A DNA stretch of 36,546 nucleotides from Candidatus Jorgensenbacteria bacterium RIFCSPHIGHO2_02_FULL_45_20. Lineage in GTDB: Bacteria > Patescibacteriota > Minisyncoccia > UBA6257 > GWB1-50-10. A model generated the notes under the pieces. It had not been told where the DNA came from, did no database searches, and worked only from the letters and a program-made list of their open reading frames with translations. How positions within the stretch are numbered: the stretch's first letter is position 1; the number at the start of each line of letters is the position of its first letter. Below are positions 5,626 through 8,745 of the stretch, piece after piece. Location of the stretch: contig MFKJ01000003.1 of the NCBI GenBank assembly GCA_001779535.1, forward strand, positions 1-36,546. Direction: 5' to 3'. The position numbers were made by a program, and so were the translations under genes.

Positions 5626-7743
5626 TTATAACAAAACATCTCTCGGTTTCGCGCCTTCGCCGGGGCCAACTACTCCGCGCTCTTCCATCATATCAAGGAG
5701 TCGCGCGGCGCGGGCATAGCCAACTTTAAGACGGCGCTGGAGTAAAGACGCGGACGCTTTGCCGGCGCTTCTTATGACTTCAACCGCCTCCTCATAGAGT
5801 TCGTCGTCGTCCGCTTTTTCCTCAAATGCTTCAAAATTCGGAGCGTCAAGCGAAGGACGGTCATTTGCTTCCTCAAGCGACGAGCCGTTTATGAAGTCCT
5901 GCGAAAGAGACGGATTATTTTTCTTTATAAATTCAACAACTTTTTTTATCTCATCTTCCGAGATGTACGCTCCCTGAACGCGTTTCGGTTTTGACAATTC
6001 GGACGAAACGAAAAGCAAGTCCCCTCTTCCGAGAAGTTTTTCAGCTCCGGCGGAATCAAGAATCGTGCGCGAATCAACCTGGCTTGCGACTTGAAGAGCG
6101 ATTCGAGTCGTAATATTCGCCTTGATAAGACCTGTTATAACTTCAACCGATGGCCTCTGCGTTGATACGATCAAATGAATGCCAGTCGCGCGCGCCATCT
6201 GGGCGAGGCGGATTATCGCGCCCTCAACTTCCCTCCCGTATGAAGACATAAGATCGGCGAGTTCATCTATCACTATTAATATGTAAGGCAAGTCGCTGTG
6301 GTTTTTGTGATAACTTTTTATATCGCGAGAACCCGATTCAAGAAGAAGCTGATACCTGCGGTCCATTTCCTGTATCGCCCACCTAAGAGAACCAAGCGCT
6401 TTTTTGTTTTCCGTTATAACAGGCGCGAGAAGATGAGGAATGCCGCCGTATACGGACAGTTCGACTCTCTTCGGGTCAACCAATATGAGTCGCAGCGTGT
6501 CCGGTGAATTTTTGAAAAGAATGGACAGTAAAATCGCGTGTAGCATTATTGATTTTCCGCTTCCTGTGGCGCCGGCAACTAAAAGGTGCGGCATTTTGCT
6601 TATATCCTGGAATATCGGTTCGCCGCTTACATTTCTACCGAGACCGAACGTGAGTAAGCTGGATTTTTGAAATTCAGGATAAAGCAATATGCTTCCGAGA
6701 CGCACTATCGCCGCCGCCTTATTGGGAACTTCTATGCCAACGAGCGATTTTCCGGGAATAGGCGCCTCGATTCTTATAGGGTGCGCCGCGAGCGAAAGCG
6801 CGAGGTCTTGATTCAACGCTATGATTTTTGACAAACGAACCCCCTCCGCCGGTTTCAATGTGTAGCGCGTTACGGTAGGTCCGACGTTTATTTCTCCCAT
6901 TTCAACCGATATACCGAAACTTTCAAGCGTGCGCTTTATCATATTCGCGTTCGCGCGCAGGTCGCCTATCGTCGGTTTTTCTATCGTTGAAGAAAGAATG
7001 GAAAGAGGCGGGGCGATGTAATTTTTTATCCGCTTCTGTTTTAATTCCGTTAATTTTTCCGAATCGGTAACAAATTCCGGAATTTCATCACGCGCGCCGG
7101 AAGAACTCTCCCCTCTTTTTTTGTCTCTGGATAATTTCTCCTTGGTATTTTTCTGCGCGTATTCCGGCGTATTTTGCTCCGCGATTTTTTCCTCATCCGC
7201 GTAATTTTCGTAGGCGTCTTTTTTACGGAAAAGCGGAAAGTTTATATTAAGATTCAGCGGACGGTTGAGCGCAACCAAAGACGATATCACGAAAACAATA
7301 AATGTTATAAGAATGGACGCTGGAGTTCCGAACGGCTGTTTTAATTTTCCTGTAAAGCTACCCAACAGTCCCCCATGTCCGTTCGCGATAATGTCTATAA
7401 ACCCGAGCCCGGATATGAAAATAAGAATACTCGCTCCGGCGGTTATCCATATATCGCGCTTGAAGTCGCGTTCTTCGTCCGACAACAATGAAAACGCGAG
7501 TATGAAAAAAATCATGGGGAATAAGAAATACCCCCATCCGAAAAATTTAGTTAACGCATTGTATACCGAATTACCGAACGGCCCCGCCTGTCTAACTCCC
7601 GCGAGCAGGAATAATATTGCTATTCCCAAAAAAAGAACAACCCAAATAGTTTTCAAAATGTCCGGATGAAGAGAATCGGAAATTTTTGCGCTTTGTTTTT
7701 TCACGGCTGGAGTTTCTTTCTTATTTTTTGATTTTTTTGCCAT
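5626..7743 (-). CDS. ftsK: DNA translocase FtsK/SpoIIIE
   Basis: N-terminal TM helices, MPHLLVAGATGSGKSIMLHAI Walker A, LILVDPKRVELSVY, C-terminal winged-helix gamma-like domain. Confidence 0.96.
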   Translation of the reverse strand: MAKKSKNKKETPAVKKQSAKISDSLHPDILKTIWVVLFLGIAILFLLAGVRQAGPFGNSVYNALTKFFGWGYFLFPMIFFILAFSLLSDEERDFKRDIWITAGASILIFISGLGFIDIIANGHGGLLGSFTGKLKQPFGTPASILITFIVFVISSLVALNRPLNLNINFPLFRKKDAYENYADEEKIAEQNTPEYAQKNTKEKLSRDKKRGESSSGARDEIPEFVTDSEKLTELKQKRIKNYIAPPLSILSSTIEKPTIGDLRANANMIKRTLESFGISVEMGEINVGPTVTRYTLKPAEGVRLSKIIALNQDLALSLAAHPIRIEAPIPGKSLVGIEVPNKAAAIVRLGSILLYPEFQKSSLLTFGLGRNVSGEPIFQDISKMPHLLVAGATGSGKSIMLHAILLSILFKNSPDTLRLILVDPKRVELSVYGGIPHLLAPVITENKKALGSLRWAIQEMDRRYQLLLESGSRDIKSYHKNHSDLPYILIVIDELADLMSSYGREVEGAIIRLAQMARATGIHLIVSTQRPSVEVITGLIKANITTRIALQVASQVDSRTILDSAGAEKLLGRGDLLFVSSELSKPKRVQGAYISEDEIKKVVEFIKKNNPSLSQDFINGSSLEEANDRPSLDAPNFEAFEEKADDDELYEEAVEVIRSAGKASASLLQRRLKVGYARAARLLDMMEERGVVGPGEGAKPRDVLL

Positions 7744-7987
7744 ATGGTTTTGTGTGTGCTTTTAATTAAATGCTAAATTTTGGCAAAATTCAATTTTAAC
7801 CGGACCGGAAATTGTCGCTTAAAATGATATAGATATTTAGGGGGATTTTTCCGCCATAATGTGGAAACGATAAAGACATTCCCCCACCATTGCGGAAAAT
7901 ATTGAAACATCGGCGGCAAGCGGCAGAACTGTACTGGCGGAAACCGTATAAATTCGTTTCTGAACTTATTTTTAGTGATACGATAAG

Positions 7988-8008
7988 TTATCCACATATT
8001 GTGGATAA
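7988..8008. promoter_or_regulatory. Inverted pair of perfect DnaA boxes
   Basis: TTATCCACA (7988-7996), 3-bp spacer, TGTGGATAA (8000-8008). A one-mismatch box TAATCCACA lies at 8299-8307. Confidence 0.75.
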
Positions 8009-8146
8009 GTTGGAAGCACTAAGTTGTTGTTTTAAATTTGGTCATAAAAATTGAAAAAACAGGAAAAACTGAAAAACCTGCTTAAATAAAACTCGGAAGC
8101 TGGTAATGCGATGAAACCTACACTTTTGAAAAATGATACACAAAAA

Positions 8147-8162
8147 TGTTTCACGTGAAACA
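8147..8162. promoter_or_regulatory. parS site
   Basis: TGTTTCACGTGAAACA, identical to the canonical bacterial parS 16-mer. Confidence 0.92.
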
Positions 8163-8223
8163 TTTTTTACAACAAGCTGGTAATGCGATGAAACCTACAT
8201 TTCTTGAAAAACGCACTTGAAAA

Positions 8224-8239
8224 TGTTTCACGTGAAACA
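8224..8239. promoter_or_regulatory. parS site (second copy)
   Basis: TGTTTCACGTGAAACA. Confidence 0.92.
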
Positions 8240-8352
8240 TTTTGAAACAAAAATCGGGGGTCAGAAAATGGTTTTTGAAAGTGTCTTAAATTAGGCAGTA
8301 ATCCACAGGGTCGAACCAAGACCAAGCGGATGATGGGGTGTATAGTTGAGAT

Positions 8353-8745
8353 ATGGTTGAAAAAGACAGCGACGCAAACCGGAAACAATCGCTTGGGAAG
8401 GATGGGGAGGACTATGCCTGTGACATTCTTGAAAGAAAGGGCTATAAAATTATCGAGCGCAACTTCCGGCTCCAGGTAGGAGAGATAGATATAATAGCGA
8501 AAGAACTAAATGGCACGGTCGTTTTTGTGGAAGTTAAAACCGTTGGAAAATTCAGTTTTGGAGGGTTAAAACCGGAGGATAATATGTCGGTGGCAAAAAT
8601 GAAAAAATTCAGGCGAATCGCGTCGCTTTATGCGAACGCACGGAAAGAAATGATAAATGAGAACAGGGGATACAGATTAGATCTTATTGCCTTATCAAAA
8701 GTTGGAAACGATTTTATAGCGAGGCATTATGAAAATGTGGGGTAG
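8353..8745 (+). CDS. YraN family (UPF0102) endonuclease-like protein
   Basis: GEDYACDILERKGYKIIERNFRLQVGEIDIIA...VVFVEVKTV. Confidence 0.92.
   Translation: MVEKDSDANRKQSLGKDGEDYACDILERKGYKIIERNFRLQVGEIDIIAKELNGTVVFVEVKTVGKFSFGGLKPEDNMSVAKMKKFRRIASLYANARKEMINENRGYRLDLIALSKVGNDFIARHYENVG

Follow-up and report, generated by a model that had tools for sequence, protein, structure and literature searches.

The gap of about 610 bp between ftsK (minus strand) and yraN (plus strand) carries a pair of parS sites and DnaA boxes, which raises the question of whether it is a site of chromosome segregation, a replication origin, or a regulatory leader of one of its neighbors. We analyzed this gap within its window, a stretch of 36,546 nucleotides that constitutes an entire contig (C3) of a genome of 608,199 bases in 31 contigs (96% completeness), and in related genomes of the same order, which belongs to the Parcubacteria group.

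Layout of the parS array

Scanning the window for parS with up to 3 mismatches produced 2 sites where shuffled sequences predicted 0.26, and both are exact copies of TGTTTCACGTGAAACA (8147-8162 and 8224-8239). They are the sole copies in the genome at up to 1 mismatch. Both lie in a direct repeat with a period of 77 bp, the 70-nt copies of which span 8097-8166 and 8174-8243, which confirms the 2 perfect parS sites in a 77-bp tandem repeat described earlier from the sequence alone (the sequence-only reading). Each unit is composite and consists of a conserved block and the palindrome, a feature missed by that reading. The 2 units share the same block and the same palindrome and differ in their spacer. 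The features of the locus are as follows:

5626-7743, minus strand: ftsK, DNA translocase, left neighbor of the gap
7988-7996, plus strand: DnaA box, exact, left half of an inverted pair
8000-8008, minus strand: DnaA box, exact, right half of the inverted pair
8097-8166, plus strand: composite unit 1 (conserved block, 24-bp spacer, and parS)
8097-8122, plus strand: conserved block 1, AAGCTGGTAATGCGATGAAACCTACA
8147-8162, no strand: parS 1, perfect 16-bp palindrome
8174-8243, plus strand: composite unit 2, 84% identity to unit 1 across 70 nt
8174-8199, plus strand: conserved block 2, same sequence as block 1
8224-8239, no strand: parS 2, perfect 16-bp palindrome
8299-8307, plus strand: one-mismatch DnaA box, chance-level
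8353-8745, plus strand: yraN (UPF0102), right neighbor of the gap

The sequence-only reading considered a duplicated, closely spaced parS unusual and parS sites to be normally dispersed singles. Both ideas are contradicted by a pattern scan of all species, in which at least 119 stretches contained 2 exact parS sites with starts separated by 48 to 77 bp, among the matches listed in Lachnospiraceae, Streptomyces, Clostridia, and Alphaproteobacteria, as well as by multi-copy clusters in the window's order. Perfect parS occurs in 60 of the 244 genomes of this order, usually in clusters of 2 to 8, with a minimum spacing of 46 to 52 bp in several arrays, and clusters adjoining yraN recur across the order. 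Of 29 parS loci tested in relatives, 16 had a yraN homologue inside the roughly 3-kb locus, several of the loci without yraN ending at a contig edge. The congener G113 has a two-unit array at the same place, with a near-identical block and the palindrome TGTTTACCGATAAACA, so the doubling of the unit probably predates the split of the 2 species.

A conserved block and a drifting palindrome

The block is 22 to 26 bp long, asymmetric (consensus YGATAATGCGATGAAACCTACA-cTTT), and located upstream of a TGTTT-N6-AAACA palindrome. With up to 2 mismatches in 19 bases, it was detected in 34 of the 244 genomes (49 matches versus 3 in the reversed control), including 27 of the 42 genomes of family f1 (about two thirds). 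Outside f1, it was found in 6 genomes belonging to f5 (2), f20 (1), and f23 (3), again near yraN, and a match in f25 (G238) was set aside because it seems to fall within a coding sequence. A third copy was not found in the window's own genome using the 26-bp block as query and up to 3 mismatches. A PWM of the block, run over 2.9 Mb, gave 147 matches above 13 bits and its reversed control gave 1, a count that is not independent evidence because the scanned sequence was enriched for the parS/yraN locus and included the training loci and overlapping copies. Beyond the training loci, nearly all PWM matches lie in the parS/yraN gap of their own genome; another (L085:12393, in G139) adjoins that genome's third parS (one mismatch), and L195:2973 appears to be a chance match. 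The block is essentially confined to the parS/yraN locus. In G101 and G104, the array adjoins ftsK and not yraN, and in G137 it adjoins neither gene, although a palindrome is present there too. Two further observations concern the block: in some relatives (L381, L356, and L357) it occurs as an inverted pair of 2 facing copies (e.g., TGTAGATTTCATGCGATTATCCGATAATGCGATGAAATCTACA), and there is one matching stretch in viral contigs.

Block conservation reaches 1.8 bits at most columns, whereas that of the palindrome core falls to 0 to 1.0 (the palindrome arms were fixed by the search pattern and their conservation is not evidence). The spacing between block and palindrome is 23 to 26 bp in 25 of 35 units, usually 24 to 26. 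The rarer spacings of 16 (3 units), 34 to 35 (5 units), 45 (1 unit), and 6 bp (1 unit) mostly differ from this by roughly one or two turns of the helix, which is no more than suggestive given the few independent events.

The orientation of the genes around the array also varies: the array is flanked by a divergent pair in the window, by a tandem pair in G104, G101, and G223, and by a pair that appears convergent in G113 and G137 (some of these neighbors are short reading frames and perhaps not real genes). With neighbors in all three arrangements, the array is better read as a DNA site. That it is instead a cis-regulatory RNA leader of yraN or ftsK, composed of a motif and a hairpin, would fit the fixed order of the motifs towards yraN and the ability of the palindrome to fold as a hairpin. 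However, we consider this very improbable, since the neighboring genes change and those of G113 and G137 seem to converge on the array, the central complementary pair 8-9 could not form within a hairpin (a point confounded by retention of the ancestral CG), and no credible Rfam family was found at the array. Matches obtained at relaxed Rfam thresholds were miRNA-like matches to the inverted repeat and were rejected, and sigma-70 and terminator scans gave chance-level results.

The palindrome core drifts away from CACGTG and is different from it in most f1 relatives, perfect CACGTG being present in 5 f1 genera and throughout the other families of the order. The core differs between species and usually matches between copies within one species. 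Moreover, core pairs 6-11 and 8-9 are complementary above chance (p 7e-4 and 1.4e-4, respectively; related species were compared, and part of this may come from the ancestral CG). Both this complementarity and the contrast in conservation between block and core fit a dimeric DNA site. A ParB of the chromosomal Spo0J/ParB family is encoded in the window's genome (E 4e-43 to 6sdk) and a ParB match was found in 35 of the 42 f1 genomes; the 7 without a match include G139 (L081-L089), which is 98% complete and has perfect parS sites. The recognition helix of ParB, GKSRExxAN, varies very little between genomes with different palindrome cores, and by-eye comparison revealed no covariation between helix and core. 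Because the core is mostly not CACGTG while the helix hardly changes, it is uncertain from these sequences whether ParB would bind the drifted palindromes: either ParB tolerates the core changes, or the drifted palindromes are no longer ParB sites. A rival explanation is that a different dimeric protein, one that evolves fast, binds the f1 palindrome and that the perfect parS of the window reflects ancestry only. The variation of the core between species and its usual agreement within one, the above-chance complementarity of pairs 6-11 and 8-9, and the constancy of the ParB helix all accord with such a protein. Nevertheless, perfect CACGTG persists in the 5 f1 genera and throughout the other families, and ParB is kept in most f1 genomes; we regard this explanation as improbable.

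Position relative to the replication origin

The observation that the window lacks dnaA and parB was correct, as the former is on contig C18 and the latter on contig C9. In relatives bearing dnaA and the parS/yraN locus on a single contig, the distance between them is 3.5 to 65 kb. Contig C14 of the congener G113 is matched by genes of C3 as well as by C18, the contig with dnaA in the window's genome; from this synteny, dnaA would be expected at about 50 kb from the parS gap, on its left side. The parS sites thus lie in the origin region. The proposal of a detached ParB loading centre fits these data, since the genome's only perfect parS sites are located apart from dnaA and parB.

The inverted DnaA boxes reported in the sequence-only reading are exact (7988 on the plus strand and 8000 on the minus strand), and the genome has no second inverted pair of this kind, even when up to 2 mismatches are tolerated. 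The third near-match box at 8299 is present with 1 mismatch, but such boxes occur at chance frequency (8 in the window versus 6.2 expected). The cluster therefore amounts to one exact inverted pair and a chance-level box, and the dnaA-dnaN region of the same genome, which has its own boxes (C18:9187-9563), scores equally. The only other close exact pair of the genome, with 2 boxes 12 bp apart, is found at the start of a division operon with mraZ-like and rsmH-like genes (G000:C14:703-723, L317).

The sequence-only reading had also proposed an oriC away from dnaA. Because raw cumulative skew minima were scattered and distorted by gene orientation, we used strand-adjusted fits of GC3 skew, with terms for gene strand and breakpoint side, on stretches of 11 relatives, the window's own genome being too fragmented; ORFs were called mechanically, and the test is thus relative and not absolute. 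In 7 of the 11 relatives (G113, G139, G133, G107, G227, G160, and G226) the breakpoint was at dnaA or clearly nearer to dnaA than to parS/yraN. In these 7, the fits preferred dnaA over parS/yraN by about 10 to 91 log-likelihood units. They rejected parS/yraN by 11 to 102 units, and dnaA itself by 11.0 in G139 and by no more than 2.9 in the other 6. In the congener G113, the breakpoint was at dnaA and the yraN/parS locus was rejected by 33.6 units. The switch favored the parS/yraN side in 1 relative (G136), and the remaining 3 decided neither way (G181 and G116 did not separate the two loci and the breakpoint of G216 is near neither). In addition, no skew minimum was seen in G018, and G111 was masked to the left of dnaA.

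According to the remaining rival view, the gap would be oriC or a second origin, with DnaA opening the inverted boxes and parS located inside oriC. The genome-unique exact inverted pair agrees with this, as do similar inverted pairs next to parS arrays in another family (G226-G229), the raw skew minimum between the 2 parS sites of the complete genome G181, and the G136 skew. However, G181 cannot discriminate because its dnaA is just 6.4 kb from parS, the strand-adjusted switch is nearer dnaA in the congener and 6 other relatives, and the dnaA-dnaN region of the window's genome has boxes of its own. Furthermore, the raw skew minimum in the window (at about 7.7 kb) falls where ftsK, a rodZ-like gene, and recA run in the opposite orientation, and in G113 the skew trend resumes past these same genes. 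The skew of the relatives, the distance to dnaA, and this orientation effect together make it unlikely that the gap is a replication origin.

A candidate composite centromere and known systems

The parS copies and their uniqueness, the ParB gene, the block with its near-fixed spacing and confinement to the locus, and the skew breakpoints of the relatives were observed directly. We consider that the array is probably a chromosomal centromere, that is, a ParB-loading site made of composite units, located in the origin region tens of kb from an oriC at dnaA/dnaN. We infer that ParB loads at the array, that a second factor occupies the block, and that the two cooperate across the spacer. ParB-CTP would load at the two palindromes and spread, to be then moved by ParA and/or to load SMC. 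The block would be the site of a putative second protein on the same DNA face as ParB, which may help to seat or position it. A more tentative proposal, possible although we lean slightly against it, is that the near-invariant block recruits this protein to a position helically phased with a ParB palindrome, the core of which can drift freely, and that the block rather than parS defines the f1 centromere. A second conserved motif accompanying parS on a chromosome would point the way to a centromere factor that is still missing. The drifting palindrome, together with an unchanged ParB helix, makes the evolution of parS-ParB specificity testable. A full-text literature search returned no paper on parS sites in Patescibacteria or the Candidate Phyla Radiation, where chromosome segregation appears to be almost unstudied.

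Tandem centromere units are known from sopC of plasmid F. In layout, the array is likewise tandem, but with just two 77-bp units. On chromosomes, the number of parS sites varies, and having several near the origin is normal (PMC7333895). The array resembles chromosomal ParABS systems in its perfect 16-bp parS, its proximity to dnaA in relatives, and the encoded ParB, and differs from them in that all sites are in one small gap, each following a conserved motif at near-fixed spacing. By analogy, the nearest known composite centromere may be parS of plasmid P1, in which an IHF site lies between ParB boxes (PMC5016525). The array differs from it in being chromosomal, in its palindromic parS, in a motif unlike the P1 arrangement, and in having no evidence of IHF; what the two would share is a second conserved motif beside parS and, putatively, a partner protein that binds it.
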